Shown: positions 2,752-61,161 of the stretch, piece by piece
Numbering within the stretch: position 1 is the first letter of the stretch
Layout of the letters: each line of letters begins with the position of its first letter
Origin: Dolomedes plantarius
Lineage: Eukaryota; Arthropoda; Arachnida; Araneae; Dolomedidae
NCBI GenBank assembly: GCA_907164885.2
Contig: OU015493.1
Coordinates: forward strand, 117,613,693 to 117,677,692
Direction: 5' to 3'
Length of the DNA stretch: 64,000 bases
Translations under genes and position numbers: made by a program
Notes under the pieces: model-generated
Seen by the model: only the letters and a program-made list of their open reading frames with translations
Told to the model about the DNA's origin: nothing
Database searches by the model: none

Positions 2752-2922
<171 letters not shown>

Positions 2923-3631
2923 TGTGATGATATCAGTTAACGTGCACAGTAAACTTTAACTTAAATTATGTAGAGGAGATGAAACACACACATGTTGTAG
3001 ACGTAGCCAGAGGGTCAGGCGATGAAGACCATTTCACGAGAGCTGTTGACACATCGGGGAGGAAAACCACACACTGCAGAGGCATTGGAAGGATGCACAC
3101 AACAAATATGCGACGGATATTAATTTATTCCGGATTCTAATGTAGACACACATTATTCAGAAAAACACAGGTATCTTGACAACTTGAAACAAACAATTGC
3201 AACGCCACCGGTCCCTGCCGGGCGCATTCAGAACGCAGATTTTAAATCATATTGGGCAGCAGAGGAGCAGCGCGTAGACAGCACAAGACATCGACAGACA
3301 GTCAAAAGCACGCCTTAAACTTTTACAGAAGGTTATAAAGTGTAGGGGTACTGACAGCGGGGAAATAATTTTATTGGCTAAAATTGAGCATGTGACTTGA
3401 TTACATAAGGGTCGCCTGTTGTTCCGAAAAGCGCACCGAGGCGAAAACATCACGTGGTCCTGATTCATGTTTACAAATATCTTTAACGCGCGTGCACTAG
3501 GGGGTAATCTGGATGGTTAGTTGGTCAATTCTTAGGTCACAATTAGAAGAAAGAGACTGTACTTTATTGAGAAGAAACAAGGATAATTTAGAATACGCGT
3601 TAAGTAAAAAAGGTGGGGCTTTATTATCACA
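2923..3631 (-). repeat. gypsy-1 3' LTR
   Basis: 709 bp direct repeat of 9222-9930, downstream of pol in the sense direction. In sense orientation it opens TGTGATAATAAAGCCCC, so an AATAAA lies within the first 15 bases. No difference from the partner LTR was found on reading both. The 73-residue minus-strand ORF inside each LTR is identical between copies but shows no family features and is probably chance. Confidence 0.95.
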
Positions 3632-3635
3632 ATAT

Positions 3636-3646
3636 CCCCCCCTTCC
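3636..3646 (-). promoter_or_regulatory. gypsy-1 polypurine tract (plus-strand primer)
   Basis: On the sense strand the sequence is GGAAGGGGGGG followed by ATAT and then the LTR start TGTGATAATA. An uninterrupted purine run immediately upstream of the 3' LTR is the expected plus-strand priming site for reverse transcription. Confidence 0.8.
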
Positions 3647-4374
3647 GGAAAAAGACCTGCGAGAGGGGCCGGGCCCTAGCTCCTCGAGCAAGGCTTCCCT
3701 TCAGGTGAGAACATTTTACTAAATTTAGAAAAGAAGGTTACAAGTTAAAGGGATGAGTTTATCAAAATCTTGACCTCGCTGTCCGCATACTGTCCTTGGA
3801 GCCTTACTTTACATATAAGATAAACAACATTACTTGAAAAACACATTATATAAATTGAGACATAGCTGCTAATACTGTTAATCAATACACAAAATTTAAC
3901 AAAAAAATACACAACATATCAATTTTTCTCTTAAAAGTCTTTGGAATATATTACACATGAAGCTTCAAACTTTAAGAACATGAAAAAACCATAAAATATT
4001 TCCAACTGTAAAGTAATATGAAGAACTGGAATACAAAAATAGAATACTTGATATACAACTAATTCAATATTTTGAAGTGGTACTAATAATACTTCAATAT
4101 TCAAATTCAAATAACTCTCAAAATGGCAATACAAAATATAATATGTTAATATGAAATACAATATATTAATTCACAAGTTTAATATAGGTATTATAAAAAG
4201 TGTAACTTTATTCAAATATGTAGTATTACAACGCAAAATATAGACGAAAATTTTTCTATATTGGCGAGGTTCTCTTACACTCAACCGAGACTTCTTCATA
4301 TTTAAATTAATGGGACGACAGGAAAGTGCTTAGAGAAGGAGAGAATTACGAAAGATTAAAGTATTAGGTTTGAC
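3647..4374 (-). other. gypsy-1 3' untranslated region
   Basis: About 730 bp between the pol stop and the polypurine tract without a convincing ORF. It holds no envelope-like ORF with signal peptide and transmembrane segment. A GC-rich patch (ggggccgggccc, about 3663-3674) stands out against AT-rich surroundings. Confidence 0.6.
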
Positions 4375-7300
4375 TCATTCATGGTATAATTTAAATTCGG
4401 CAGGTGGATTGTAATATCTCAACTTGGATGCATGTACAATTTCAGTAGACCTGTTATTATATTGATTTGGCTTATCTATTTCATAAGTCACTTCAGAACA
4501 CTGTTTTAAAATTTTGTAAGGGCCAGAATAAGGGGCTGAAAGTTTACGGGTATTTGGATATGAAAATTCTTCTAAGATTACAGCATCACCAGGTTTAAAT
4601 TTAGAGGGTACAAAGCGAGCATCATACCTAATTTTGTTTTTATTATGATAATCTATTGTCCTTTGTTTTGCTAGTTTTCGAGCTTCATCCACTGGAGGGT
4701 AATTAGTTTGATTTATAGGGGAGTCATAAGGCTGCTTGCCAAACATTAAGTATGCAGGGGTAAATTTTGTAACTGAATGGGGACTATTGTTATATTCGGT
4801 AATGACTTCTTCCAACAAACGTGTCCAAGGAACTTTAGTGGACGAAGAATTGACTTTACATTTTAGCCTACTTACTATTGATTGATTCACTCGCTCCACT
4901 TTACCGTTGGTCTGAGGATGATGTGCTGAAGTCAAAAGCTGTTTCACATTATAATTTTGAAGGAATCTCCTGAATCGTGATGAAGTAAAGGCTGCATTTC
5001 TATCCGTTAGAATTTTCTCTGGTACCTGAACTTGGAAAATTTGCTTAAGGCAGTTGGCATACGTTTCTGTGGTGACACTTTTAGAAGGAAATGCCCACAC
5101 ATATCTTGTTGCATGGTCTATTGCAATGTGGAGATATTTTTTTGTAGAATTGTAATAGTTAAAACCACCGACAGTATCAACAGAAATACATTCAAAAGGT
5201 TTATCTGTTGGAGGTACAATTTGCATAAGTCCAAATTTTTTCAATTTTGATTTCTTGTTAAATTGGCATGTTGCACAGTGTTTGACAAACTTTGCAATAT
5301 CCTCAGTTATATGAGGCCAATAATACTGAGGGGTAATCAAATTTAGCATTTTTTGTACACCAGGATGACCAAATTGATCGTGACACTTTTGTAACAATTT
5401 TAAACGTAGTGACATAGGAACAACAATTTTATGTAGATTTTTTCTTTTTAATATGATTACATCATTTATCTCTTGATACTTTGGATCATGAAGGTTGTCA
5501 TTTTTCTGTTGTGTTTTAATTTCATCCAAGTCTAATAAATGTACATTATGTTGAAGATGCTGGGAAACAGGATGCCTTGAGAGCATATCAGCTTCGACAT
5601 TTGTGGAGCCTTTTTGGTATTTGATTTCATAATCAAACATACTGAGTTTTAAGGACCAGCGGAATAACCGACCTCTTAGATTTTTTACATTTTTGAGCCA
5701 AACAAGAGCCGCATGGTCAGTATGAATGACAAATTTTTGGCCATGGAGATAATAGTAGAATTTGTCTAAAGCATCCACAATCGACAAACATTCCAATTCC
5801 GTGATAGCATAATTTTGTTCATAATTACGTAAAGTCCTTGAATGATATGCAACAGGATGTAATATATTAGAGGCATCAGGCTGTTTCAACACAGCTCCAA
5901 CTGCATTTTTTGAGGCATCAACATATACATGACATGGTAATTTAGGATCATATAATTGAAGAACAGGTTTAGAAATTAACACATGTTTTAATTTTTCGAA
6001 TGCACTCTGGCATTCGTCTGTCCAATTCCACTTAACATTTTTTTTCAAAAGTATATTTAATGGATACCGAATTTGAGCATACTTAGGGATAAACTTATTA
6101 TATACATTGACAGATCCTAAGAAACGTTGCAACTCCTTTACGTTCTTAGGAGGTTGTAACTTCTGAATACTATCAATGTTGGCATTATTTGGAGTAATTT
6201 TTCCTTGTTGAACTTCATAACCAAGAAAATTAATTTTGTCTTTGGCGAACACACATTTAGATAATTTAAGTTTAATGTTTTCTTTCTTACAGATTTCAAA
6301 AATTTGTTGTAAGTGTTGCCAATGCTCCTCTTCAGATGAAGAAAAAATAATAATATCATCGAAATAGTTATAAGCAAAGTTAATCTTATATTTAGCCAAA
6401 ATTCTACGAATGGTTCTGTTAAAGATTCCTGGGGCATTTTTTAAGCCAAAAGGTAGACGAAGCCATTCAAATAATCCGAAACTTGTTGCAAAGGCAAGTT
6501 TTTCAATATCCTGAGGGTGAATTGGAATATGCCTGTAGCCTGAAGTTAAATCTAGTGTTGAAAATATTTTAGCTTGACTTAATTTGTCTAGTAGGCAATC
6601 TATGCGGGGTAAAGGCTCAGCATCTGTTTTGGTAATTGCATTTAATTTTCTAAAATCTATACATAATCTTGTACGCTTGCCTTCATCACGCTTAAAAGCC
6701 AAAGTGACGGGAGACGAGTATGAGCTACTACTTTCTCTTATAATACCTGCTTGTAACAATTTCTCAATTTGGCTTTTTATTTCCTCTTCTTCTTTAGGAG
6801 AAGTACGATAAGGTCTTAAGGACACAGGAAGCTCAGACGTAAGTCTAACACGCTGGGGTTCAACCCTAATTAACCCTATATCATACTTGTCTTTAGAAAA
6901 TATATGCGAATATTTATACAGTAAAGAATTGAGTTCACCATTCTCTCTATTGACAGTCTGGAAATTTTCAGAATTGTTTTCAGAGGTCAGAGGAATGTGA
7001 ACCAACTCAGTACCTACATTGTTTACATTTTGACTTACATTTGGTTTAAGATTTACACATTTGGACTCATTATTATTAATATGAAATGACATTGGCGTAC
7101 ACACAAACATTTTATTACGTGGAATTATTAGTCCATTTTGATAAATTTGCATAGAATTACAATCAATGTTTAGTTGAAATTGTCCACATTCTGGTAATCC
7201 CAGGATTATATAAGGTAAATCATTGTCTATAACGTACATTTTTACCTTTTTAGTAACATTTCCAATGCACAAGTTAATTAAACATGATCTCTTTAATTGG

Positions 7301-7458
7301 AGAAGGCCTTTTGCTTGTTTGACTAAAAGTCTTTCAGACGTCTGTGTTTTTAGTCTATGTTGGGTTGTCAAAGTCGAGGGGATGATAGACAAGGAGCTAC
7401 CAGTATCTATCACACAAGGAATTGGTCTCTTATTTATGTATCCGGATACGTTTAATTG
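4375..7458 (-). CDS. pol: gypsy-1 Pol (protease, RT, RNase H, integrase), reached by UGA readthrough
   Basis: About 1,027 codons stay open after the gag UGA, in the same frame. The first internal Met is at 7413 and is followed directly by the retropepsin site DTGSS, so starting there would leave only two residues before the catalytic Asp; a Gag-Pol fusion is more likely. Domains in order from that Met: protease (DTGS, residues 3-6), reverse transcriptase with a YFDD box near residue 350 (YLDD or YIDD is usual), RNase H (HVYVDAS, TELE, HTDHAAL), integrase zinc finger (HX..HX..CATC) and core with Asp near 743, Asp near 803 (LTDRNAAF, where DRG is usual) and Glu near 839 (NGKVERVN), then a GPY/F module (SGPYKIL). 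No internal stop or frameshift. Function by family: copying the element RNA to DNA and integrating it. Confidence 0.93.
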   Translation of the reverse strand, partial: QLNVSGYINKRPIPCVIDTGSSLSIIPSTLTTQHRLKTQTSERLLVKQAKGLLQLKRSCLINLCIGNVTKKVKMYVIDNDLPYIILGLPECGQFQLNIDCNSMQIYQNGLIIPRNKMFVCTPMSFHINNNESKCVNLKPNVSQNVNNVGTELVHIPLTSENNSENFQTVNRENGELNSLLYKYSHIFSKDKYDIGLIRVEPQRVRLTSELPVSLRPYRTSPKEEEEIKSQIEKLLQAGIIRESSSSYSSPVTLAFKRDEGKRTRLCIDFRKLNAITKTDAEPLPRIDCLLDKLSQAKIFSTLDLTSGYRHIPIHPQDIEKLAFATSFGLFEWLRLPFGLKNAPGIFNRTIRRILAKYKINFAYNYFDDIIIFSSSEEEHWQHLQQIFEICKKENIKLKLSKCVFAKDKINFLGYEVQQGKITPNNANIDSIQKLQPPKNVKELQRFLGSVNVYNKFIPKYAQIRYPLNILLKKNVKWNWTDECQSAFEKLKHVLISKPVLQLYDPKLPCHVYVDASKNAVGAVLKQPDASNILHPVAYHSRTLRNYEQNYAITELECLSIVDALDKFYYYLHGQKFVIHTDHAALVWLKNVKNLRGRLFRWSLKLSMFDYEIKYQKGSTNVEADMLSRHPVSQHLQHNVHLLDLDEIKTQQKNDNLHDPKYQEINDVIILKRKNLHKIVVPMSLRLKLLQKCHDQFGHPGVQKMLNLITPQYYWPHITEDIAKFVKHCATCQFNKKSKLKKFGLMQIVPPTDKPFECISVDTVGGFNYYNSTKKYLHIAIDHATRYVWAFPSKSVTTETYANCLKQIFQVQVPEKILTDRNAAFTSSRFRRFLQNYNVKQLLTSAHHPQTNGKVERVNQSIVSRLKCKVNSSSTKVPWTRLLEEVITEYNNSPHSVTKFTPAYLMFGKQPYDSPINQTNYPPVDEARKLAKQRTIDYHNKNKIRYDARFVPSKFKPGDAVILEEFSYPNTRKLSAPYSGPYKILKQCSEVTYEIDKPNQYNNRSTEIVHASKLRYYNPPAEFKLYHE

Positions 7459-7461
7459 TCA
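7450..7461 (-). promoter_or_regulatory. gag-pol stop-codon readthrough signal (UGA CAAUUA)
   Basis: Sense reading is CAG AUG UGA CAA UUA AAC. The UGA at 7461-7459 ends gag and is in frame with pol (48 nt from the first pol Met). The next six bases, CAAUUA, fit the CAR-YYA consensus known to promote stop readthrough in tobacco mosaic virus RNA. A 12-base palindrome GTATCCGGATAC follows three bases later. Seen: stop, frame and motif. Inferred: that translation reads through here. Confidence 0.75.
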
Positions 7462-8526
7462 CATCTGATTGTCATCAGTAAGGTTAGGTATCTGACTCTC
7501 AGTGTTTTCCACTACTTGAGGAGCCATCGGATTACTAATTGCATTTCTAAAGGGGCACGTCTGCACCCAATGATATGCATTCAGTATACCTCTCCCTGTA
7601 CATTCTCTACATGGAGCTGGAGGCAGTTGAGTTTGGGAATGGATATTATTATAGTGAGTTCTTGGTGGTTGAAATCTTGGGTATGAGTTATTGAAATTAT
7701 TTGGATTGCGACTGTTGAAATTTCGATAATATGGTGGTCGTTGAAATCCAGGTCTAAAATTAAATCTGTCATTTTGTGGAGTTCTGGGACTGAAATTATT
7801 TGCTTGTGGAGGTCTGGGACTGTTAGTTTCAGCATGTGTCTCTTCACTTTTAAGTAATTTAGAAATTAAAGTGAGCCATGCTGTTGGGGTAGCAGGAGGA
7901 CTAAGCGCCATCAACTGCTGAAGATTTGGAGGAAGACCATCAGTTAAACCCTCCATTAATAGACTGTTTGATAATCCCAGCTTTCGACCACACGCCAATT
8001 TCTTATGGAAATAATCAGTTACCCCTTTAACCTCCTTTAATTTAAGATTAGTGAATTCGCTAAAGGAGACTACCTTGATTTCTATGAAATTTTCCCTCAA
8101 AATCAAACACATTTGTTCCCAATTTTGAACATCTAAACACGAATTAATGAAAACAGTAAGTGCTTTCCCCTTTAAATATTTACTTAAGTTATTTATTTTC
8201 CATTCCTCATTTTTACAACTTTCCCGACACTTTCGGTTAAAATAGTTTAGCCATGAATCCAGATTCATGCCAGCTTCGGCATCAAAACCAATAATGTGCT
8301 GTTCAGCAGTACTAAGCATTTTTAATTCTGTACTGGTGCTGGCGGCTACTAATTTAGGTTCCATTAAAGTACTTTGATCCAGTACATTTGGTATGTTGAC
8401 ATTGGTAGGGGGTATTACATTACCAGCGCTAGTAATTACTGAGTTAGGCTCGATTGGAGCACTCTCTTCAGTTACATTTGGCAATTCAGCATTGGTAGGG
8501 GGTATTGTGTCTTCACTCTCAGACAT
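7459..8526 (-). CDS. gag: gypsy-1 Gag with an unusual zinc-knuckle-like motif
   Basis: 355 codons from the Met at 8526 (MSESEDTIPP); the frame is open 23 codons upstream to another Met at 8595, but that extension is hydrophobic and lies before the acidic start typical of Gag, so I choose 8526. The N-terminal 70 residues are low-complexity with repeated PPTN motifs. A capsid-like region follows (DAEAGMNLDSWLNYF; YLKGKALTVF; LKEVKGVTDYFHKKLACG). The C-terminal third is rich in Pro, Asn, Arg and Phe, and a Cys/His cluster of form CX2C-X9-HX4C (CRECTG...HWVQTC) sits where a CCHC knuckle is expected. Role by family: virus-like particle shell and RNA packaging. Confidence 0.88.
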   Translation of the reverse strand: MSESEDTIPPTNAELPNVTEESAPIEPNSVITSAGNVIPPTNVNIPNVLDQSTLMEPKLVAASTSTELKMLSTAEQHIIGFDAEAGMNLDSWLNYFNRKCRESCKNEEWKINNLSKYLKGKALTVFINSCLDVQNWEQMCLILRENFIEIKVVSFSEFTNLKLKEVKGVTDYFHKKLACGRKLGLSNSLLMEGLTDGLPPNLQQLMALSPPATPTAWLTLISKLLKSEETHAETNSPRPPQANNFSPRTPQNDRFNFRPGFQRPPYYRNFNSRNPNNFNNSYPRFQPPRTHYNNIHSQTQLPPAPCRECTGRGILNAYHWVQTCPFRNAISNPMAPQVVENTESQIPNLTDDNQM

Positions 8527-9221
8527 GATTAGCAGTTTTCCAGAACGTAAAAACATCAATATATTACATAAAACTTTCAATAATATAAATATCACTCACA
8601 TAAATACCGTACAAAAATAACATATCATCACTATAAATCAATTAGATCATTTTCATTTTCTTATTTTTTCTGACCTACCTTTAACTTCTTTTAAAGTGAA
8701 CCTTTTAATTTCAAAAACAAATTTTTTCATTTTTATTGATGCATACGTTGGACTGACGGAACATTGAACCAAACTGCACACCACTTGTTTTCATCTCCTT
8801 GCAGGGCAGTACACACACTGAGTACATAAGTACGACACTCGAAGTGATGACTCTTAAAAGATGATTACACATTTTTTTTAATTGCAAAAAAATTATCACG
8901 GAATGAAGTTTGATACCGTAGCCCAGGAACAAGCAGCTGACGTTTTACACAATTTTCTTCCCGTTGCAGCAAAACCAGATGCAATGTAGAACACAAAAAC
9001 TTGAACATCGTAAACCTTAATTCACTCGGAATGACGTAAAACACCTTCACATGTATCGAACACGAATATTACGATTATTTATTACACACTATGACGTACG
9101 AAAGAGCACTAGGAGAATATACCGCGATGATCTGGAACGAAGTTCACAACGTAAACAAAACACTCAGCGCCGAACTGAAAACAACCACTTTCTCTTCCCA
9201 CGCAGGGATCCAGCCGACTCA
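8527..9221 (-). other. gypsy-1 5' leader
   Basis: About 695 bp between the 5' LTR and gag. In sense orientation it starts TGAGTCGGCTGGATCCC directly after the LTR CACA. A tRNA primer-binding site must lie here by family logic; a TGG occurs 9 bases inside, but I cannot match it to a tRNA 3' end. Confidence 0.6.
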
Positions 9222-9926
9222 TGTGATGATATCAGTTAACGTGCACAGTAAACTTTAACTTAAATTATGTAGAGGAGATGAAACACACACATGTTGTAGA
9301 CGTAGCCAGAGGGTCAGGCGATGAAGACCATTTCACGAGAGCTGTTGACACATCGGGGAGGAAAACCACACACTGCAGAGGCATTGGAAGGATGCACACA
9401 ACAAATATGCGACGGATATTAATTTATTCCGGATTCTAATGTAGACACACATTATTCAGAAAAACACAGGTATCTTGACAACTTGAAACAAACAATTGCA
9501 ACGCCACCGGTCCCTGCCGGGCGCATTCAGAACGCAGATTTTAAATCATATTGGGCAGCAGAGGAGCAGCGCGTAGACAGCACAAGACATCGACAGACAG
9601 TCAAAAGCACGCCTTAAACTTTTACAGAAGGTTATAAAGTGTAGGGGTACTGACAGCGGGGAAATAATTTTATTGGCTAAAATTGAGCATGTGACTTGAT
9701 TACATAAGGGTCGCCTGTTGTTCCGAAAAGCGCACCGAGGCGAAAACATCACGTGGTCCTGATTCATGTTTACAAATATCTTTAACGCGCGTGCACTAGG
9801 GGGTAATCTGGATGGTTAGTTGGTCAATTCTTAGGTCACAATTAGAAGAAAGAGACTGTACTTTATTGAGAAGAAACAAGGATAATTTAGAATACGCGTT
9901 AAGTAAAAAAGGTGGGGCTTTATTAT

Positions 9927-9930
<4 letters not shown>
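9222..9930 (-). repeat. gypsy-1 5' LTR
   Basis: Direct repeat partner of 2923-3631 with the same 709 bp length and the same TG...CA ends. It is upstream of gag in the sense direction, so it should carry the promoter. Its right edge abuts the resumed (TA)n tract. Confidence 0.95.

Positions 9931-10000
<70 letters not shown>
9931..10000. repeat. (TA)n microsatellite, right half
   Basis: 70 bp of pure TA directly after the LTR, the continuation of the tract ending at 2922. Confidence 0.97.
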
Positions 10001-10002
<2 letters not shown>

Positions 10003-10200
10003 ACATTACACCTAGCATATAGCTGACTTCCTATTACTACTCAATTATATTAAACAATCAATCAATATTACACTTCATCATATTCATCCTGCGCAATTAA
10101 ATAATGTTGCACCTGCCATATAGTTGACATCCTTATACTAATCAATTATATCATACAATCATTCAATATTACTCTTCATAATATTCATCATGCGCCAATA
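10001..10200. repeat. Two tandem copies of a ~100 bp unit
   Basis: Bases 10001-10097 and 10102-10198 align through most of their length: both contain cacct..catatag.tgac, then tcaattatat, caatcaatatta or a close variant, cttcat, and end in attcatc.tgcgc. After the second copy comes aaATGGCGACCCTTGCGG, which resembles a retrotransposon primer-binding site (TGGCGACC), so this may be the edge of an old LTR. Confidence 0.65.
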
Positions 10201-11934: not shown

Positions 11935-12798
11935 CCGCATTTTTTTCCATCTGTTCCGATTGGTTACGCAGCTTACATGAAAGAAACTCATGAGAACATG
12001 AAGCAACTGTTATGCACAGTAAACTATAACAAGTTTAAGTGGCAAATTTCCGGTGATCTGAATATCATTGCCATATTACTTGGCTTGCAAGAAGGTTATG
12101 CCAAATTCTGTTGCTTTTTGTGTTTATGCGACAGCCGTGCAAGGGCACGTCACTACAGATAGAGGGATTGGCCTGTGCATCAATCAGTTAATCATGGAAC
12201 ACACAATGTTTTATATGAACCACTCGTCGAATCAAGCAAAATTATACTCCCTGCTCTTCATGTAAAACTGGGCTTTATGAAAAACTTCGTAAAAACGATA
12301 GATATGACTGGGGAAGCATTTTTGTATTTGTCTACGAAATTTCCACGTCTCAGTGAAGCCAAAATAAAAGAGGGGTTTTTCGTTGGTCCACAGATACGCA
12401 AACTGTTTAAGGATGAACATTTCAATAATATTCTCAAAGGTGAGGAGAAGTTAGCCTGGGATTTCTTTGTTCAAGTGTCCAAAAACTTCCTTGGAGATAA
12501 TAAGCCAGAAAACTATAAGGATCTTGTAGAAAATCTTCTGCAGTGCTACGATAGACTGGAGTGTAACATGTCTTTAAAGTTACACTTCTTACATTCTCAC
12601 TTGGACTTCTTCCACGAAAACTGTGGTGCTGTTAGCGACAAACATGGCGAACTCTTCCACCAACAAATTTCGGACATGGAAGAAAGATACCAGGGAAAGT
12701 GGAGTGAAACAATGTTAGCGGATTACTGCTGGACGATCATCAGGGAATCACCAGCAACAGAGTACAAAAGGCAGGCAAAGCGATTGCGCCATCAGTGA
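11935..12798 (+). pseudogene. Remnant of an arthropod-wide repeat protein (unnamed family)
   Basis: A single frame encodes about 280 residues, interrupted by TAG at 12160-12162, and open upstream of the Met at 11977 (FFPSVPIGYAAYM). Recognisable blocks are SGDLNIIAILLGLQEGYAKFC, YEPLVESSKIILPALHVKLG, FPRLSEAKIKEGFFVGPQ, LHFLHSHLDFFHENCG, and GELFHQQISDMEERYQGKWS followed by LADYCW. From memory, proteins with this order are highly multiplied in arachnid, aphid and cnidarian genomes and behave like a transposon-derived family; I do not know a domain name. The nonsense codon and missing N-terminus make it a pseudogene. It has its own continuation in no other frame. Confidence 0.7.
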
Positions 12799-13727: not shown

Positions 13728-15447
13728 ATGAGTAGATATCGTAAATTTTTGAGCCAGGAAGATATAGATGCGATCCTCTTTGTGGACACAGATGAGTCCG
13801 ATTTAGAATTAGAGGATGATGATGGATGGGATGAAAATAGCAGGCTTGAAAATGACGAAAATAATTTAGATTTAGAAGTTGAAGATTTAAATGACAGTGC
13901 AATAAGTGATCAACTTGAGGATAATAAAATTGAAAACATCGGTTGGGTTAATTGTGTAGAAAATACAAAAATGGATTTTACAGAATTTTTCTGTCATGCT
14001 GGTCCAGTTCATAATTTGCCTGTAGGATCATTCAGTCTAAGAAAAGTCCTCTCCAATTTCTTAGGCTGTTTATGACTGATCAAATAATGGATAAAATACG
14101 CATAAACACAAATAAATATGCAGAATTTTGTGCAAGAAAGCGTGGATTTGAAGATGCTGCCTGGTCTCCTATAGACAATATCAAAGAATTATGGGCATTT
14201 TTTGCTGTGTTATTAATTATGAGCATAAATCACCTTCCTAGAATTTCCGATTACTGGTCATCGAATCCTATTTTAGGAAATGAAATGATAAAAAAAATGA
14301 TGAGCCGGAACAGATTTAAGAAAATAAAACATTATTTCCACTTGTCTGACAGGGAGTCCGATAAAAACAGAGATGATTAAAATTTCACATACACGCAAAA
14401 TTTGGAGCCTCTTATGTCTGAATTGAAGGAAAAAAGTCTCCAGCACTTTCACCCATATAAAAAAATTTCAATTGATGAAGCTTTCGTGAAATTTAAAGGC
14501 AGGCTGGGAATAGTTCAGTACATGCCTCTAAAACCCGATAAAATAGGTTTAAAATTATGGATGATGTGTACGTCCCATTTAGGATACACGCTGAACTTTG
14601 AACTGTACAGTGGAAAAATGGAAAAATGGAAAGATCAAATAAAGGACTTGGATATGATGTCGTTCATCATCTCACGAATTCATTAAAAAATAAAGGTCAT
14701 GATATTTATTTTGACCGATTTTTTACAAGTGTTGACCTAATGATCGATTTGCACAAAAAAGGATTAGGGGCATGTGGTACAGTTATGACCAACAGAAAGA
14801 AAATGCCAAGTGAGATCAAAAATCTTAAATTGAAAAATAGTATTGAAAGTAAATATTTTCAATGTGTACAAATTCCTAATTTGCTGTGTACAGTATGGTT
14901 AGATAAAAAACAGATCACCATGCTGTCTACTAATGTAAAAAATAACATCTGCAAGGTATTTAGAAGAAAAGGAGCTGAAAAACATCTTGTTCCCTGTCCC
15001 TTTTCTTTTGCTATGTATAATAAAAATATGGGTGGTGATGATTTAGCTGACCAACGTCGAAAATATTTTACATCAGCTAGAAAATCATGTAAGTGGTGGG
15101 TCTATTTGTTTTCATTCCTTTTAGACACAGCTGTGAATAATGCATATATTATTTATCTAACTACCAACTGTCCATTGCCAAAGCAAACATTTCAATTGCA
15201 TGATTTCAAGCTGAAAATCCTTGAAGAATTGGGAAATAATATCAATTCACAGAAAAGGAAACGTGTTGTTCTAAATGAGATAGAATCCATTGTTCATCAG
15301 CATGTACGTCAAAAAATAAACTGGCGCAAGCGCACGCGCGTTTCCTGTAGAAAAAGTGGAAGGAAAACACTTTCTGGAGGACAAGTCGAAAGTTCTTGGG
15401 AATGCAGCATCTGCAGATTGTGTCTATGCAAAATTTGTTTTGCATAA
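13728..15447 (+). pseudogene. piggyBac-type transposase with three breaks
   Basis: The N-terminus (MSRYRKFLSQEDIDAIL) is acidic, as is usual. Reading moves from frame 3 to frame 2 at about 14065, meets a TAA at 14378-14380 in that frame, then moves to frame 1 at about 14620-14640, beside a short ggaaaaat duplication. Catalytic Asp positions are visible: SIDEAFVKFKG, YFDRFFTS and GGDDLADQ. KWWVYLFSFLLD and a C-terminal cysteine-rich tail (CSICRLCLCKICF) complete the family plan. Family role: excision and TTAA-specific insertion. Not functional here. Confidence 0.9.
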
Positions 15448-30162: not shown

Positions 30163-31317
30163 ATGGAAGAAAAACCTGCAGTATCTGCTGTGCCTTTAAT
30201 TCAGCAACAACGCAATCCCTCGATTTTCAGAGGGGAAGCTTGTCAAGATCCAGGAAAATGGTTGAAGGAATTTGGGCGTGTAGCAAAATACAACGCATGG
30301 AGTGACCTGGTGTGTTTAGCAAATACCTATTTCTTCCTTGACGGTACCGCAAAACAATGGTCCGAAAATAATGAAGCCCGACTAACGTCATGGGAAGTTT
30401 TCAGCGAGGAACTAAAAAAGGCTTTTGGTGATACGACCTACTTTGTCCGGCAAGCACAAGATCAGCTAAAAATCCGTGCCCAGAAACCTGGTGAAGATAC
30501 TCAATCATACATCCAGAGTGTGTTAGGACTATGTCATGAGGCAAACCCAAATATGACGGAAGAAGAAAAACTCTCACATCTAATGAAGGGAGTGACCGAA
30601 AACGTATACCAGGCCTTGGTTACGAAGGAAATCGCCACGACTGCAGACTTTACAAAATGGTGCCAACATATCGAAAATATGCAGCAAAAGCGCATAAATC
30701 CGCATAAGTTTGAACGACTTCCGAATGTCGTACCCATAGCGGCCATCCAGGAACAATCCGACCTTGCCAGTCTAATTCGACAAATAGTCCACGAAGAGGT
30801 TGAACGCGTCCTGGCGCCAGTGGCTGCTGAACCCGAAGCACATATTACAGCTATTGAGTCCTTTGTTCGTGATGAAGTTGTCAAGACCCTAGCACCTGTA
30901 AATAATGAACCATCTCCCTGGACTGAAGCAAAATCAAGGCGTCAAACTTCCTACGCTGATGTTGCGAGAAAAGTCAGGCCGACTCCTATGACCCCACAGA
31001 GGAAGACTGAGGTTTGGCGACCTCCCGACAACCGACCAGTCTGCTTCCACTGCGGACGGCCAGGCCATGTTGTCCGGTACTGCCGGGAAAGGAGAGCCGT
31101 ATTCAACAACTATTGGGCCGATCGAAGAGGTATCAACGAAGCCAGAAGTTCATATGCCGATTTCACCCGCCAGACGCCAGGAGCTCATCTCCCAGTCCCA
31201 CGCGTGGAAGATCACCGTCCCGCCGCTTCAGAGCTCCTTCGCCGTACCGGCGATCTAGCCAGTCTCCAGGCCGACGTAACGAGGAAAATTAGTTGGTGCG
31301 AGCTTCCCTGGGGGTGA
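30163..31317 (+). pseudogene. gag: gypsy-2 Gag with CCHC zinc knuckle, frameshifted C-terminus
   Basis: From MEEKPAVSAV at 30163 one frame runs 384 codons. Residues about 18-200 form the capsid region (PSIFRGEACQDPGKWLKEF; FFLDGTAKQW; PGEDTQSYIQSVLGLC). A classical CX2CX4HX4C knuckle (CFHCGRPGHVVRYC) follows near residues 291-304. The Ser/Arg-rich tail expected after the knuckle (SPSPTRGRSPSRRF) is found in another frame at about 31150-31292, which points to a frameshift between about 31100 and 31160. The out-of-frame tail on the present frame is therefore probably not native. Role by family: capsid and RNA binding. Confidence 0.82.
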
Positions 31318-31351
31318 GGCCGCTGGCACTTGAAATCCTCCGACGGCCGCA

Positions 31352-34300
31352 ATGATGTGTGGAAACCATCTCGACGTGACTGTGGACGGCCAACCGGTGC
31401 GTGCCCTCGTGGACTTCGGAGCATCTTTTTCGGTTATTTCTGACGAATATAGACGCCACTTACGAAAAACAATGTTTCCCACTACAGAAATCGTAACACT
31501 CAAGGTAGCCGATGGAAAACATGTCCAGCCTATGGGAAAATGCGTACTTAGAATCGGTGTGAACGGGCGAACACAACCACTTGAGTTTACAGTGTTAAGC
31601 CAATGCAGCCACGATGTTATCCTTGGCTGGGATTTTCTTCAGTCCACTCAAGCCGTTATAGATTGTGGCCGGCTGGAACTGTCGTTGGAAGATAACATAG
31701 AGGATTTAAAGAATTCCTGCCGTTTGTCATCGATAAAAGACTACATAATACCTGCCAGATCCATGAGCCGAATATCAGTTTCAGTCCCGGAAATGAAGGA
31801 AACTGTGAATGCCATTGTCGTAGCTAATAAAAATTTGCGGCTGAGTAAAGAAATCTTTATTCCTTGCACCATGATCACCATCCAGGACAGTACGGGAAAA
31901 ATATGGATTGCGAATGGAAGAGCTGAGCCCCAAACCATCCCTCAAGGTATGTGCGTTAGTTTGGCTGAACCACTCGATGAAGACATTTTAACAGTAGCAT
32001 CTGATACGTCTTCCGGGGATGCTAGGAAGGCGGGAGATAGCGATATTTCAGTTGATTATGCATCAATGGTATCAACAGGTCTTGCTCCTAAGCAACGAGA
32101 AAATCTAGTTCAAATCCTGAAACAGTTCTCTAATATTTTTTATAACGAGAAGAAAAGTGTGACCAACAGCCTAAAAGTCAGACACCGAATAAACACAGGC
32201 GATCATCCACCAATAAAACAAAGAGCCTATCGAGTTTCACCAGCCGAACGCCGCATTATACAGAACGAAGTGTATAAAATGCAAAAAAGGGGCATAATCC
32301 AACCCTCGGAGAGCCCGTGGTCGTCCCCAGTCATCTTGGTAAGAAAAAAAGACGGAAGCTGGCGGTTCTGTGTTGACTACCGTCGACTGAATCAAGTTAC
32401 TAAAAAGGACGTATACCCCTTGCCTCGTATCGATGATACATTGGACTGCTTGAAGGGAGCTAAGTACTTTTCCTCCATTGACCTTTACTCAGGATATTGG
32501 CAAATTCAAGTCGATGAAGCAGACCGTGAGAAGACAGCTTTCATAACACCTGAGGGGTTGTACGAATTTAAAGTTATGCCTTTCGGCTTGTGCAATGCCC
32601 CTGCCACCTTCGAGCGAATGATGGATAACTTATTGCGTCATCTTAAGTGGACAATGTGTCTGTGCTACTTAGACGACATAATAAATTTTTCAGAAACATT
32701 TGATGAACATCTGAACCGGTTAACTACTGTGCTGCAGTGCATTCAGAATACAGGCCTTCACCTTAATCCAAAGAAATGTCTTTTCGGTGCTGAAGAAATT
32801 AAGATCCTCGGACATCGTGTGTCTGGTAAAGGTGTTCGACCCGATGTCGACAAAGGAATTTCCGACGCCAAGAAACGTGTAGGATGTCAAGAGTTTTTTG
32901 GGACTTTGTTCGTACTATCGACGATTCATTAGAGATTTCTGTCACAGAGCACGGCCCCTTCAAATATTGTTAAAGGGCGACTCAAAGTTCCACTGGGGCT
33001 GTGACCAAGAAGACGCTTTCGACGACTTAAAGGGAGCGCTAATTTCGGATCCTGTGCTTGGACTCTACGATGAAAACTCCCCCACCGAAATCCACACTGA
33101 CGCCAGCGGATATGGCATAGGAGCCGTCCTAACCCAAGTACAGAATGGCGAGGAAAAGGTAATAGCTTATGCCTCTAGAAGTTTAACGAAAGCTGAGAAT
33201 AATTACTCTACGACAGAGAGAGAATGCCTTGCGGCCGAATGGGCTATAAATAAATTCCGTCCCTACCTTTTCGGTAAATCTTTTACGATTGTGACGGACC
33301 ATCATTCCTTGTGTTGGCTAGCTGGTCTGAAGGATCCTTCTGGAAGATTGGCAAGGTGGGCTTTGCGCCTTCAAGAACACAACATCTCCATTGTTTATAA
33401 GAGTGGATTGAAACACAAAGACGCAGATAGCCTCTCGAGGAATCCTGTGTAAAATGACAATTCGCTATCGGGAATCATTTCTGTTGTTACACAATTGGAT
33501 CTTGCTGCAGAACAACGGAAGGACCCTAAAATTGCGCAACTGATACAATGTGAAAGAAAATCAAAAAAAGACGGTAATAACTCACACAAGAGTTACCAAC
33601 TGATCAATGGTATCCTGTATAAGAAGAACTTTGATCCATGTGGAAAAAATCGTTACCAGTAATTCCGAAATATCATCGAACCGACATACTAAAGCATTTT
33701 CATGACGAACCGACGGCCGGACACCTGGGAATCCTTAAAACCTATGACAGGGTCCGTAAGAGGTTTCATTGGCCGGGTCTATATAGGAGTGTACGCCAAT
33801 ACGTAAGTCATTGCCGAGAATGCAAACGAAGGAAATCTGTTCCACAACAGCCACCTGGGCGTCTAGTACCGATACCTCCAGCCTTTCAACGGATTGGCAT
33901 AGATCTACTGGGAAGATTCCCGAAGACGAATCGAGGAAATAAAGGGATAATCGTTTGCACCAATTATTTAACTCGCTACGCTGTTACAAGAGCTCTTCCA
34001 AATGCTGGTGCGCGGGAAGTAGCTAAATTCCTTTTGGAAGACATTATTTTGACGCACGGAGCCCCGAGAGTACTAATCAGTGATCGAGGTCAGGTCTTTC
34101 AGTCAAAAATGATTCATGAACTTAATGGGCTGTGTAATATCTCACATAGAATGACAACGGCATACCATCCACAGACGAACGGGCTGACTGAACGTTTTAA
34201 CAAAACGTTAACGGACATGCTCTCCATCTATGTCGACTTAGAACAGAAGAATTGGGACGTAGTTTTGCCGTTTGTTACCTTCGTGTACAACACTGCTAAA

Positions 34301-34864
34301 CAGGACACAACTGGCTTTTCCCCATTCTTTCTGTGCCATGGAAGAGAAGCTGAGACTACACTTGACACCATGTTTCCATGTGTTGACGATAAGGAGGAAG
34401 ATGGCTATGTAAGCGACTTAATTACAAAAGCTGAGGAGTCAAGACAATTGGCCCGACTCCGAACATTAAATGCTCAAGCAAAGGATAGTCATCGTTATGA
34501 TACCAGACACCGGATGGTAACTTATAAGCCTGATGACCTAGTGTGGGTTTTCATCCCGATAAGAAAAGTTGGACTATCAGAAAAACTATTGAAGCGATAT
34601 TTTGGTCCCTATAAGATTTTGCGGCGGTTATCTGACGTCACTTACGAAGTGGAAGATTTTGACCCTACTTCAAGGAGGAGGAAATCGAAAGAAGTGGTTC
34701 ATGTGCTCCGGATGAAACCGTATTACAACCCAGACGCTTATTTGGATGCCGATACCGACAGCAACAACCCAGAAGCAGAAAATGTTGAACGAGAACAGTC
34801 TCACGACGTACCATCCAGATCTTATGCGGGTCCCCTTACGCGGTCTAGGGCAAAAATCACGTAA
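31352..34864 (+). pseudogene. pol: gypsy-2 Pol (protease, RT, RNase H, integrase), three breaks
   Basis: 31352-32890 (frame 2) encodes protease and RT. The protease site reads VDFGASFSV, where DTGAS or DSGAS is normal, so a key residue is replaced. RT shows PLPRIDDTLD, SIDLYSGYWQI and CYLDDII (YLDD at 32666-32677). A frameshift near 32890 moves to frame 3 for RNase H (HTDASGYGIG; TERECLAAEW; VTDHHSL; KDADSLSR), which stops at TAA 33450-33452. Another frameshift near 33630 returns to frame 2 for integrase, 33638-34864: zinc finger (HDEPTAGH..CRECKRRK), core Asp in GIDLLGRF, Asp in SDRGQVF, Glu in NGLTERFNK, and a GPYKIL module. By family it makes and inserts the DNA copy; these lesions should prevent that. 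Confidence 0.92.
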
Positions 34865-35545: not shown

Positions 35546-37895
35546 TTAAAAAATCTTTGCTTTTCGTGCCTTTTTTAATGCAAATTCTGTTATAATATCT
35601 GATACATCTATATCTTCCGAAATGTCCTTTTCTATACTAATAATAGATAAGTCTGAAAGCCTTTCTTGTCCCATTGTTGATCTCAAATAATTTTTTATTA
35701 TTTTAAGTTTTGAAAAGCTTCTTTCCCCGCTAGCCACAGTCACGGGTAATGTTAAAAAAATTCGTATGGCAATCACTAAATTTGGAAACAGATAGATGAG
35801 GTTACTTGTAAATAAGTATTGAATCACATTTAACGCGTTCATTTCAGGGGAAATAAAGGATGCAACGTTGTCAATTTCATCGCATAAATCTTCAGCTATA
35901 ATATCTTTTTCATTTTTAAATTGATAATGTAACATAATTTCCACAGATTTACATTTTGTAGACCTATTTGATTTATCTGTTTTAAGGAAATTATTTAGGT
36001 CGTTGAGAAAATTGAAAACTGTGTGATGTTGTTTTATTTGTTCGAACCTTTCTTCTATTTTTGATAATGCAGTGTCCAATATTACAAAGTAAAAATTAAT
36101 TTTGAATTGGTCTTCTGGATTTTTTGGAGCCTCATCTTTACATTCGTAGTCAAATAAACGTTTTTTTGTTAGGGGTCTAACAATATTAACCAGAGGAAAT
36201 GAAGGGTCGCAATCGATATCTTCTGCAATATTTTTTGCCTCTTCTAAAATATCACTAAAACCTTTATCTGACCTAATATTATATAAATATGTTTTGGTTT
36301 GCTCTAACATTAAAATAATATTTGGTAGTATAGCATCCGATTCCTGCATAGCTTTACTTACGATATTAATTTTTGTTAACACATTATACCATGTAATAAT
36401 GGAACAAATAAATTTAAACGACTTAATTTTCAAAATTAATGAATTTGCCATGTTTCTAGTTTCAGAGTCTCTAGTATTATCAGAATAGAGGGTATATAAA
36501 GCATCATATATTTTTGTTAGATTGTATCTAAGAACTTTTAGCGCATCTATTCTGCTTTCCCATCTAGTATCTGAAAGGGGTTTAAGCATTAAAGTTGGGA
36601 TTTCATTTTTTACGTTTAGTGGATGCGGAGAAGAAAACGTATAGCTCCTGTACAATTGCAAAAAAGCTTGTAATTTCTAAAGACGCTTTTGCAGCGTCAT
36701 TAACAACTAAATTTAAACTATGGGCCGCACAAGGCACATAAAAAGCTCTAGGGTTTAAGTCAAGAACTTTTTTTTGTAAACCCTTATTGCGATTCTTCAT
36801 ATTCTCACCATTATCATAACCCTGCCCCCTTAAATCCCCCAAACAAATGTTGTGAGTCTCCAAAAAATCTAATAAAATATCAGTTAAACCCTCTCCTGTC
36901 GAATCTGGTATTGAAATAAATCCCAAAAAATGCTCCCTAATTTCTATTTGCCTTGATTTATTATTTAATAGAACAAATCTTACTACAACAGTAAGTTGGT
37001 CTTGGTGACTTAGATCAGGGGTGGAATCTAAAATAATAGAATAATATTTACTAACTTTTAAGAGCGAAATTATTTCATGTCTTATTTTTTGACCCAAAAG
37101 GGAAATAAGTTCATTTTGAATATGAACACCTAAATAATGAGGCATACTTGATGGATTTCTGCTAATTCTAGTGAGGTGGTCTGATATGGTATCATTAAAC
37201 TTTGCAATTGCTTCAATTAATTTTTAAAAGTTTCCATTTCGTTGCTCGTATAACTTATTATTTTTGCCTCTAAAGCTCAAATTTTGACCGGCTAAGAATT
37301 TAACGGTATAAATTATAATTTTTAACACGGAAACCCATCTATCTTTTTCCATATTTATTAATTTCTCATTTAGAGAATCAGTAGTTGTTTCAGAAGAAAT
37401 TGATTTATTTAAATCAATCCAAGATTTTGTATTACAAATGTGACTTTTTGGTTTTTCATGACGTTCAATAATCTCAGTTAAATGTTTCCAATCGCTATAT
37501 CCCTCAACAAAGGCACTAGAAAAAGTTTTAAATAATTTGCAAGGAAAACAAAATACACAATCTTTTAACTTAGAATACACTAGCCAAACTCTTGGAATTA
37601 TTTCCCCATTACTTAATTTTTTTTTATAATAAATAGATGAGAAACCTCTGCTATCTTTATTTACAGGAAAGTTTAGATTCGCTTCTGTAAGTTGGGTAGG
37701 GCCTAACTCTACTAAAGTTAATTTAATTTTGTCAGATAGTACGGAAGGCCAACAGCTAGGATCCTTATAAACATCATCTTTGTAAGAAAGATGAAGAAAA
37801 TCTTCATGATCTTTGGTCACGGTTTCACTGGTTTCAAGACTTGGTTCTGCGATTAAAACATCTTCCTTGGGGTTTGTGATTTCGGTCTCCGTCAC
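35546..37895 (-). pseudogene. hAT transposase, ZMYM1/TTF-zinc-finger type, two breaks
   Basis: Minus strand. The N-terminal 220 residues hold the zinc-finger-like region (GFSSIYYKKKLSNGE; KDCVFCFPCKLF; HEKPKSHICNTKSW). A TAA at 37226-37224 interrupts a frame that goes on (KLIEAIAKFNDT...MPHYLGVHIQNEL). The RNase H-like core shows YYSIILDSTPDLSHQDQLT and GQGYDNGENM, then VPCAAHSLNLVV. A frameshift near 36640-36605 leads to the last 370 residues with TRWESRIDALKVL and the hAT dimerisation block (FLTLPVTVASGERSFSKLK). Acts in family by binding subterminal repeats and excising the element. The last two lesions make it inactive as written. Confidence 0.92.
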
Positions 37896-42026: not shown

Positions 42027-42304
42027 TCTACAAAATACAATGCACAAAAAACATATATTATATTTTTTTAAGTCTAACACGAACAAAGATAATTGACTTT
42101 GGAAAGAGCGTACTATTACACCATTGACGCGCATGCGTGGGTGCCCATCGCGATGGCTGGAAGACACGTGCATGTGCATACCGTAAGGCGCCAAATCGGT
42201 CTTATCCCTAGTATTTTCCTAGCCAGTTAATAGTTAGTCACCGTTCCGTGTGCGTCTGTGAACAATGGCTGATACGGAACTATGTTTTTATAAGTAAAAA
42301 ATTA
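42027..42304 (+). promoter_or_regulatory. Leader between left TIR and coding region
   Basis: Includes a further copy of the TIR motif: 42076-42190 (aaagataattgactttggaa, gcgcatgcgtggg, gcatgtgcatacc) resembles 41712-41830. Candidate transposase-binding or promoter region by position only. Confidence 0.5.
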
Positions 42305-44777
42305 ATGTCAAATGATGATTTCGTGAATGTAGGAGAAAAGGGGATCGACACTTTAAAGAGAGCTAGTGTCCAAAGAAAAGACAATAAGCATGAACAGTTG
42401 GAACATTTAAAATCTGTTTCGATTCATTCGTTGTGTCGGAGAAATATAAAAGGTGATTTAAAAAGAAATGCAGAAATCGCGTCAACATCCCAAAGTGAAG
42501 AGCGCGCGGTAAGTTTACGATCTTTTTTACCTCAGTTCGATTTTCGAACAAAATGTTTCTTTTGTACGGCAGTGATAGACGAAGAATTCAAAGCAAGACA
42601 AAAGAAAAAACCAACTGACAGACGAAGAACTATATACGAAGTTAGGAGTCTCGAAATGAAATACAAAGTTCTTGAAACTGCAGAGAATAGACATGACCAG
42701 TGGGGAGAGGAAGTTCAGTGTCGTATAATAAACGTTGCTGATTTAGTTGCAGCTGATGCGATTTATCACCAAGATTACTTCATGACTTTTTTTCTACACA
42801 CTGTACCAATCAGAAAGAGAGGGCGGCCTGAGTCGGATTACGCCTCAGCAGCTGTAGACGAAATATCCTTCTTCCTTGATAATAATGACGACTGTCGATT
42901 CTCACTTCCTGAACTCAAATCTCAAATTGCAGGGCTAGTTCCAGACGACATCACTTTGAGAAATAAGTTGAAACAAAAATACGGGGATGGCATTATTTTT
43001 GCTTCAAACTCCAAAAAAAGTTACTGTCATATATTTACGTAATACTGGAATGAAAGTCTTATCAGACTCTTGTACGACAAAAGGATACGAAATGATCGTG
43101 AGGAGCGTCTACGAATAGTACAAACTGCTGCAGCCATAATAAAAGAAGATATCCAGACACCAGTTTATGACACTCATTGCTATCCTCCAAGTGATAACTT
43201 TTTCAGAGATGTGAACAAGGGCATTCCAAAATGCCTAAAATCTTTTTTGGAGCACTTGATTATTAAAAAAAAGGCGGAAAAATAGTCACTTCAATAGCTC
43301 ACGTCATTATATCAGCGCTAAGGCCACGATCATTTATGTCTCCTCTGCTCAATAGTCTTGATTTATTTTTGTACAAAAAGTTCTGTTCCAAGAATTTAAT
43401 AACAATGCTCTCGAATTTGGGATTTTGTTCTTCTTACTATGAAGCCCAAACACTTGAGATGTCAGCCATAAATCATCCTCAACCCCAAATGCGCGAGGGA
43501 TCATTCTGTCAATTCGTATTTGATAGTGCAGATTTCAATGTGTCGACAATCGATGACCTGAATACGTTTCATAGCACGGGGGGCATTGCTTGTTTTACTC
43601 CAGCGTCAGCAGTGGAACCCGGGACGAAGATAAAAAACTTAACCGAACTTACATCCGCATCGACCGTAGGCAAAATGGGAATCATTACTCTAGAAACGTT
43701 TGAAAATTTTCGAGGGCCTGGATTACAAACAATTACTATCGAAGATTTGAATGTCTTAAATCCTTTAGCGGAAGATTTACCACTGCCTAAACCATCTGAT
43801 ATCTCCTGGATGTGTGCTAAGTGGTTAGGTCTTCCACAGATACCTGAATGGAAAGGATTTTTCCATTGTATAACCAGAAACCAGCCTTGTGAAAAGACCA
43901 AAGTAATACCCCTTCCTTTTGTTAATTTACCACCAAGCAAGTATGACACCATTTTCACTGTGCTGAAATATGTTGCCCAGCAGTGTGTTAAAATGCACCA
44001 AAAGTCTTGCATACTCGCGTTTGACCAACCACTGTATATTAAAGCTCGAGAGATAGTCGCAGCAACATCCAATCCATTATTATCAAGTTGTATTGTGAGG
44101 CTTGGTGGATTCCATCTTTTAATGTCATTCTCAGGCTGCATTGGGTACATAATGGCTGGAAGTGGGTTGAAAGACATACTAACTTTGATTTATGCACCTA
44201 CGTCAGTAGAAAAAATGTTGCCTGGCCATGCATACGCTAGGGCAGTCCGAGCTCATTTATTGACCCAAACAACTTTAGCAAATATAATTTTTGACGGCAT
44301 GGACATATCGGATTTGAAATGTAAAAATCTCCGTGAGTTGTTTCGAGATTTTGCTACTGAACCACCATCGCAAGAAACCTTAAACGCACACACTCAAATA
44401 TGAGCCATCGAAATTAAAATGAGGAAGACTTTGGAGCACCTGAAAAAGAAAGGCCCAACTGCCTGTGGGGCTGGAAGCGTCAAGAGAAAATTCTTGAAAA
44501 AATGTATGCAGTAGCTCCCGATTCAGTTTTAAACATGGTGTTTTGCAACTGTAAGACTGACAATGGAATAAGATGCGGATGTCGGAAAGCAGGCATCAAC
44601 TGCACAACGGCCTGGAATAATTGCAATGGGGTATGTCAGAATGGCTTCAGCCCTGTTGATGATGACGATCGAATGAAAGAAGTTGATGAATGGGCCGATG
44701 CTAGCGGATCCATAGACGATCTATACATGCCTGACGAAGGGGAGAATCCCGTACCGAAAAAAGCACGTAAATCCTGA
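42305..44777 (+). pseudogene. Putative transposase with C-terminal CXC (tesmin/TSO1-like) module
   Basis: I start at MSNDDFVNVG (42305) because the 19 upstream codons look unlike protein. Frame 2 runs to TAA 43040-43042 and goes on in frame to 43285; frame 1 covers 43290-44403; frame 3 covers about 44455-44777. So one nonsense codon and two frameshifts. N-terminal part has CFFCTAVID and a KKYGD-like block (KQKYGDGIIFASN). The middle has ALRPRSFMSPLLNSLDLFL, SDISWMCAKWLGLP, LAFDQPLYIKAREIV, VRLGGFHLLMSFSGCIGYIM and GSGLKDIL. The end has CNCKTDNGIRCGCRKAGINC, then CNGVC. The CXC match is known from TSO1/tesmin DNA-binding proteins. The role as transposase is inferred from the flanking TIRs. Confidence 0.75.
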
Positions 44778-59749: not shown

Positions 59750-61161
59750 TCTGTCACAAAAAAATATATGCACCCAGAAGGAAACGAGCTACTGTCTCGA
59801 AACTTAACATGTATGTATTGTATGAGGAGATAAGCAAATGATTACAAATTCAGAAGAGTAGACCGTTTTATTAAGAAGATATGGCATGAAAGGGGTTACA
59901 AATCAGTAAGTAGTAAAACTACCTCTGGCAGCTATACAAGCCGAAACATGGCATGACATCGAATCAGTGAGGTCACCTATGACCTCCTGCCGAAGATCAT
60001 GCCATAATCTTTGCAACTGGGCAGTCAATTCACCTGTATTCGGGGACGGCTGCAGTTGCCTTCCAAGCACGTCCCAGACGTGCTCTATTGGCGAGAGGTC
60101 TGGTGACCTGGAAGGCCATGGGAGTACGTCATATCTTTCAAGACATTGTTGGGAGAGTAGCGCAGTATGTGGACGAGTGTTGTGTTGCTGATAAATGGCA
60201 CCTGGGTGACTGTATATCATAGGCAGTACAACTGGGGTTAAAATCTCGTCCACGTAACTGCGTGCCGTCAAAGTGCGTTGAAGAAAGACTAGAGGTGATC
60301 GTGTGTCCCAACAAATCACTCCCCACACTGTCACACCTTGTGTAATCCCCGTATGCCTCTAGACAACAAATGCCTGATCGGACGGGTGGCCTGGCCGCCT
60401 CCACACGCGTATGCGCTGTTCATCAGTATTGAGACTGAATCGAGATTCATCGCTGAAGATCCCACGCCTCAGTCCGTCACACTCCAGCTTGCCCGAGGTC
60501 GGCAAAAATTCAATCGACACTGCCTATGATGTGGGGTCAGTGGTAGGCGTCTTTATGGACCTCGGCTCCTTATACCTGCGTCGGCCAGTCGTCTCCGAGT
60601 GGTTTCCCTTGATACCACCGGATGTCTGGAAGGTTTTGAATGGGGTCGAACCGATTCTAGCAACGTTGTTGGTTCGGACGTGGCCGCTCTTATGATCGCT
60701 CGATCCTCGTGTTCCTAGGACACTCTGACCCTCCGCGACGGTAGACTATCCCTTCGGTGATCCATTTTTGCCAACACCGAGCAACTACCATATCGCTCCG
60801 ACCGAGGTGGCTGCCGATACGCCTGTTCGACCAACCTGCTTCTCTGAGGCCTACTATACGCCCCCTCTCAAAGTCCGACAATTATTCGTACTGTCGCCGA
60901 TTACGTCTCAGAGGCATCTCGAATCACAATACCGTCCATCCAAGTCGGCAGATTTGTTTGAATAACCCTATGGCACGAGCAATCATGGTTTTGAATTCTC
61001 CCAGCTGCGCATCTCATATGCGCATAGCGCGCTTACCCTTGTCTCAGTGGCGTCGAAATGTTAATCATTTGCATATCTCTTACCAGACTATATTTCTGCC
61101 AAGTTTCGTGATAGTAGCTCAATTTCTTCTGGGTGCCTATATTTTTTTCTGACAGATTGTT
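59747..61161 (-). mobile_element. Tc1-like DNA transposon, copy 2
   Basis: Full length, about 1,415 bp, inverted relative to copy 1 at the left window edge. Left TIR starts CACTCTGTCAC; right TIR ends CTGACAGATTGTT; both continue with the tgcacccagaag and gagctact..c.cgaaac blocks. TA on both sides. Confidence 0.9.
59903..60881 (-). pseudogene. Tc1-family transposase, broken
   Basis: Minus strand. Starts MSDFERGRIVGLREAGWSNR (60881) with the helix-turn-helix domain. Relative to copy 1 about 10 bp are missing near 60710, shifting the frame; a TAG replaces Glu near 60361; the last 143 codons (60334-59903) are open and hold GVICWD, QQHNTRPHT and SPDLSPIEHVWD. In QQHNTRPHT the second catalytic Asp of copy 1 (QQDNTRPHT) is His, so catalysis would fail even if the frame were intact. 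Confidence 0.88.

Follow-up and report, generated by a model that had tools for sequence, protein, structure and literature searches.

Organization of the element and of its gag-pol junction

The window analysed here, a 64,000-nucleotide stretch of the genome of the spider Dolomedes plantarius (contig OU015493.1, positions 117,613,693 to 117,677,692 of the forward strand), carries on its minus strand, at 2922-9930 in window coordinates, a 7.0-kb Ty3/gypsy long terminal repeat (LTR) retrotransposon whose gag and pol genes share one frame and are parted by a single UGA codon. The classification follows from LTR comparison and Pfam searches: the element is bounded by a pair of LTRs, and the Pfam matches of pol come in the Ty3/gypsy order of protease, reverse transcriptase, RNase H, H2C2 zinc domain and integrase core. 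The 5' LTR (9221-9930) and the 3' LTR (2922-3631) are the same at 710 of 710 bases, in agreement with the matching LTRs reported in the initial annotation of this DNA, and a purine-rich run adjoining the 3' LTR (3632-3646) is probably the polypurine tract. TA repeats surround the element on its outer flanks (2664-2921 and 9931-10016), so that a target-site duplication cannot be distinguished.

The gag gene (7459-8556; 365 codons and the UGA) opens with the ATG at 8556, its M-x-L-R-S-G start aligning with that of related proteins. Gag gave no Pfam match at E 0.001; it contains a Cys-His motif, CX2CX9HX4C, at 7555-7611. The pol frame (4375-7458; 1027 codons and a stop) encodes the Asp-Thr-Gly of the protease active site at 7399-7407 (PF13975), the reverse transcriptase core at 6211-6678 (PF00078), RNase H at 5635-6024 (PF17919, PF17917) and the integrase core at 4915-5202 (PF00665).

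At the junction, the TGA (7461-7459) is followed at once by CAATTA (7458-7453), which codes for Gln-Leu and is the 3' readthrough context of tobacco mosaic virus (TMV), and pol continues in the gag frame directly past the stop with no spacer. A single in-frame stop interrupts one gag-pol frame, as had been proposed, and neither of the other two frames is open around this place. Of the 7831 stop triplets in the window, 6 have CAATTA directly behind them and 14 have CARYYA, which puts the odds of such a context at any one stop at about 1 in 1000. Three nucleotides past the hexamer starts a perfect 12-nt palindrome, GTATCCGGATAC (7438-7449; Val-Ser-Gly-Tyr), one of 16 palindromes of this length in the window that are not purely AT.

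The initial annotation had placed the first Met of pol two residues before the catalytic Asp of the protease; this proved mistaken, since GTG (Val) is the codon in question. In the pol frame an ATG first appears at residue 74, 56 residues past the catalytic Asp (residue 18), and no AUG lies in that frame between the UGA and the protease active site. With the supposed Met gone, initiation of Pol at an AUG becomes less likely still.

Conservation of the stop and of its context among genome copies

An exact 18-mer spanning the site occurs 62 times in the animal's own genome (2.78 Gb, 390 contigs) with no occurrence of the control. A 35-place pattern in which the stop and the hexamer were left open, and up to three flank mismatches were allowed, matched 110 genome places (control, 0), 100 of which are listed and make up the copy set referred to hereafter. 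Because the pattern fixes the flanks, their conservation in this set, that of the palindrome included, is biased, while the nine open positions are unbiased.

TGA occupies the stop position in 99 of the 100 listed copies and AGA in the remaining one. The hexamer is CAATTA in 62 copies, CAATTG in 20, CAACTA in 11 and CAATTT in two, with AAATTA, GAATTA, CAGTTG, CAACTG and CAAATA found once each; 73 copies conform to CARYYA and 95 code for Gln-Leu after the stop. The hexamer varies more at its last base than at its first or in its Gln-Leu meaning. CAATTG and CAACTA after UGA are natural variants of the hexamer that are synonymous for Gln-Leu.

Sixty of the 100 junctions were fetched, namely 20 of the 29 with no flank mismatch, all 9 with one, 16 of the 43 with two and 15 of the 19 with three, the two- and three-mismatch junctions being picked so as to include rare variants, the AGA copy among them. 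TGA is present in 59 of them, at a divergence between copies of up to 17% (mean, 5.9%). The preceding codon is ATG in 28, ATT in 28, AAT in three and AGT in one. Codons of these junctions depart from the majority form in a mean of 5.8 copies (median, 3) and the stop in one; the other in-frame stops across the 60 windows are scattered, none being common to the family.

Constraint on the protein encoded past the stop

Ratios of nonsynonymous to synonymous differences (pN/pS) were calculated from the 38 gapless windows among the 60, over 291 pairs of copies differing by more than 4.5%, which are not independent of one another. The ratio was 0.63 in the gag tail and 0.31 over the opening 300 nt of pol; in the 51 nt between the stop and the active site of the protease it was 0.21. 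Read in the two wrong frames, the same 300 nt gave 1.22 and 1.18. The stretch between the stop and the active site therefore evolves as coding sequence of the gag frame, with no AUG to start it. Together with the lack of an upstream AUG, this constraint lends support to the argument of the initial annotation against independent initiation of Pol, although the Met on which that argument had been based does not exist.

A second family with the same junction

The animal's own genome was also searched with P0023, a fused Gag-Pol protein of Argiope described below; 56 of 21476 first-look candidates were scored, giving 84 matches. Twenty-eight of these belong to the window family, with TGA inside 27 and the AGA copy as the remaining one. 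The others comprise 28 gag-protease and 28 reverse transcriptase pieces of a second family. All 28 gag-protease pieces were fetched: TGA lies inside 27, which read CAATAT-TGA-CAATTA-ATT-GTATCCGGATAC, the palindrome being identical to that of the window element, and one carries TTA for TGA with the hexamer unchanged, which brings CAATTA to 28 of 28. These copies (L091-L118) differ by a mean of 0.8% at the junction, from which it follows that the second family was recently active.

The two families are well separated. Between the window copy and L091, 119 of 287 aligned residues are identical in gag and 57 of 139 in the protease (53% as DNA), or 41% overall. At residues that the two share, the codons are identical at 6 of 6 positions just past the stop, compared with 20 of 51 farther into the protease and 41 of 113 in gag; at 0.39 per codon, the chance of six identical codons in six, calculated post hoc, is about 0.004. 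Across the copies of the two families and in the pN/pS ratios, then, the stop is conserved and coding constraint is found on both of its sides.

Relatives in other genomes

Ten relatives of Gag were found in other genomes, at 32-45% identity, all of them stand-alone proteins of 273-418 residues; the length limits of that search (0.55-1.75 of the query) would exclude full fusions, and protein data cannot show stop codons. The CX2CX9HX4C motif is present in nine of the ten, 11-38 residues from the end, and five of these nine motif-bearing relatives end in Gln, a residue that makes up a fraction of 0.106 of the tails (p 0.0012); these protein ends count in favour of the readthrough proposed below. 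Scans of IMG/VR with Gag and with the protease piece returned no relative.

On the pol side, 648 relatives passed and 120 of them are listed, the named hosts among those listed including Araneus ventricosus, Argiope bruennichi and Trichonephila clavipes. Two of the 120 contain the junction peptide: P0018 (Araneus), with ENQQ-W-QL, and P0023 (Argiope), with SPAQ-L-QL. Three more Argiope records, all of one gene, read GPEQ-L-QL, and a protein search aimed at the junctions of fused relatives gave matches from Argiope bruennichi only. Trp and Leu at this place are each one base away from a stop. P0067, P0094 and P0096 are more distant fused proteins, single open reading frames (ORFs) with a similar Cys-His motif; the spacing of this motif is unusual, and in these three proteins, from mite or other source, it is CX2CX8HX4C.

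Probable readthrough of the UGA and competing explanations

We consider it probable (about 0.86) that this Ty3/gypsy element produces its Gag-Pol protein through programmed readthrough, at a conserved UGA set in the TMV-type context UGA-CAAUUA. The majority of ribosomes would stop at the UGA and release Gag; in a minority, a near-cognate tRNA would insert an amino acid at the UGA and translation would carry on, by way of Gln-Leu-x-Val-Ser-Gly-Tyr, to protease, reverse transcriptase, RNase H and integrase, so that Gag-Pol would make up a minor part of the product. The chief stimulator would be the hexamer. Judged from sequence comparison, readthrough appears to be much the best of the explanations considered, and the conservation of the UGA among copies and the constraint beyond it lend support to the prediction of the initial annotation, within the limit that CARYYA is found in 73 of the 100 copies. 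The check named with that prediction, conservation of UGA-CAAUUA among copies, went in its favour, on the UGA of the window family and on the whole of the signal in 27 of 28 copies of the second; the hexamer of the window family itself varies, CAATTA being kept in 62 of 100.

Several observations weigh against this reading. The site holds a sense codon in 5/5 fused spider records, Trp in P0018 and Leu in the rest, and a single-ORF lineage may exist in Argiope, counter to a uniform rule; we note that annotation favours sense-codon copies, and that a single-ORF ancestor may later have gained the stop. Twenty-seven of the 100 listed copies lack CARYYA, 20 of them having CAATTG, and by the measure of the OPRL1 reporter discussed below, in the part of that work drawn on here, CAATTG copies should read through more weakly, which speaks against a strictly TMV-like rule. 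Conservation at the stop is high, but other codons match it: 21 of 181, the stop itself among them, are at least equally conserved. In 199 pairs less than 2% apart, the pN/pS of the 51-nt stretch is 0.57, on few changes. With a mean difference of 0.8% among its copies, the second family amounts to about one observation. Folding of the 120 nt past the stop, modelled without pseudoknots, is no better than that of shuffled sequence (z -0.16). Finally, the codon that precedes the stop in TMV is CAA, unlike the ATG or ATT found here.

Among the alternatives, two strike us as improbable and about equally so. Pol might be translated separately, by reinitiation or by internal entry at a non-AUG codon, with the UGA merely ending Gag, and the GTG two residues ahead of the catalytic Asp would offer such a start. 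Initiation there would, however, remove the N-terminus of the protease, the first AUG comes only at residue 74, and both the constraint and the Gln-Leu begin directly past the stop, upstream of the GTG. Alternatively, a minor spliced or edited RNA might lose or change the stop and yield Gag-Pol by ordinary translation, for which there is a precedent in Drosophila copia, reported to set its Gag:Pol ratio by regulated splicing (PMC2194720, in the extract cited). Coding-like codons flank the stop here without a spacer, so that an intron would have to remove the stop almost alone, and a leaky context at exactly this stop would be coincidental. Splicing, editing and non-AUG initiation all fit the constraint poorly.

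Chance decay of the window copy, in an active family with one fused gag-pol ORF, was rejected and is very unlikely. It could call on the Trp or Leu of the five fused spider relatives, on the AGA of 1/100 listed copies and on the TTA of 1/28 second-family copies; UGA is nonetheless the form of most copies in both families (99/100 and 27/28), as the initial annotation had anticipated in arguing that the stop was unlikely to be mere decay, and the remaining in-frame stops of the 60 windows are scattered rather than family-wide. Ribosomal frameshifting, rejected because both alternative frames are closed at the junction, has next to no chance of being correct: gag and pol lie in the same frame, which would demand two compensating shifts, and the one shift-like heptamer, CCCTTTA, 93 nt upstream of the stop, lies outside the usual register.

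The identity of the palindrome in the two families invites a more speculative proposal, namely that a clade of spider retrotransposons relies on a compact RNA module, UGA-CAAUUA-NNN-GUAUCCGGAUAC, to drive its Gag-Pol readthrough. The 12-mer, being self-complementary, would supply the second half of the signal, acting either as a small hairpin or by pairing two genomic RNAs, which would tie Pol synthesis to RNA dimer formation and packaging. We regard this extension as doubtful. A 4-bp hairpin formed by the palindrome is part of the minimum-energy fold and absent from the centroid, the predicted pairs are nearly invariant and covariation is consequently uninformative, and the case for a reach beyond the two families is drawn only from the ends of proteins.

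Comparison with known recoding signals

The literature is cited here from extracts of the papers named. The closest precedents are Ty3/gypsy elements of fission yeast (Tj1, Tosmo1-3, Tcry1), for which ribosomes have been proposed to read through a UGA that separates Gag from Pol within one frame, in a conserved GAA-TGA-CT (PMC10085805, PMC4600332); in Tj1, the stop ending Gag is required for transposition and Pol is described as having no AUG (PMC4600332). The window element shares with them the superfamily, the in-frame UGA and a conserved stop context, but theirs is GAA-TGA-CT in fungal hosts and that of the window element CAAUUA (PMC4600332, PMC10085805). The Tj1 group are chromoviruses, whereas Pfam gave no chromodomain match at E 0.001 at the integrase C-terminus of the window element, although members of that group are said to carry one only 'usually' (PMC10085805). 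On these extracts, UGA readthrough for Gag-Pol had already been put forward in Ty3/gypsy from fission yeast, and what appears new here is a CARYYA-type signal in an animal element; among the titles and abstract openings listed in searches of open-licence papers, which did not take in the recoding survey of Gao et al. 2003, none described an animal Ty3/gypsy element with a CARYYA stop.

In its six bases past the stop, CAAUUA in the window copy, the element resembles TMV and plant viruses with CARYYA (PMC2194720, PMC4132726). It differs in that the stop of TMV is UAG (PMC4132726) and that of the window family a UGA, mostly after ATG or ATT, and in that the signal serves the replicase of a plant RNA virus there and the Gag-Pol of a retrotransposon here. 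In a reporter built on the mammalian gene OPRL1, readthrough of UGA with CARYYA behind it reached about 15%; UAG was similar and UAA well below, and each of the six bases of CARYYA appeared to count (PMC4132726). By analogy, the signal of the window element may resemble that of TMV in the way it works without being a copy of it.

Other elements share single features. Murine leukaemia virus likewise has an in-frame stop between the Gag and Pol of an LTR retroelement, but there it is a UAG with a downstream pseudoknot and here a UGA with a CARYYA-type hexamer and a fold, modelled without pseudoknots, no better than shuffles (PMC5009743, PMC2194720). In Tca2 and VdLTRE5, Gag and Pol likewise share a frame that a UGA divides; they belong to another superfamily, Ty1/copia, and are described in the extracts cited without CARYYA (PMC2194720, PMC3441728). 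The CsRn1-like AgCR elements of Anopheles are animal Ty3/gypsy elements with an unusual Gag Cys-His motif, and in six of them gag and pol share a frame; the two ORFs of these six are 60-165 bp apart and the motif is CX2HX9CX3C, in contrast to the one stop codon and the CX2CX9HX4C of the window element (PMC2582038). Unlike Errantivirus, the gypsy-type insect retroviruses, the window element has no long ORF after pol, the longest open stretch between pol and the 3' LTR in the three minus-strand frames being 79 codons (no search with env models was made).

If readthrough is confirmed, an animal Ty3/gypsy lineage would set its ratio of Gag to Gag-Pol by a stop signal of the plant-virus type, which would join frameshifts and single ORFs, the usual arrangements of the superfamily. 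Readthrough would likewise account for gene annotation that breaks such elements at the stop or chooses sense-codon copies. The many natural variants found in one genome (CAAUUA, CAAUUG, CAACUA) make it directly testable which bases matter in arthropod cells.

Other features of the window

Another Ty3/gypsy element lies on the plus strand at 30163-34864; its Gag ORF has a Pfam Retrotrans_gag match, and its pol, in the +1 frame relative to gag, is split into three ORFs. Four ORFs of 207-355 residues (12175-12798, 37224-37895, 42248-43042 and 43336-44403) gave no Pfam match at E 0.001. Remains of DNA transposons, Tc1-like (DDE_3), piggyBac-like (DDE_Tnp_1_7) and hAT-like, the last below the Pfam cut-off, are found at 65-961, 14626-15447, 35546-37145 and 59903-60334.
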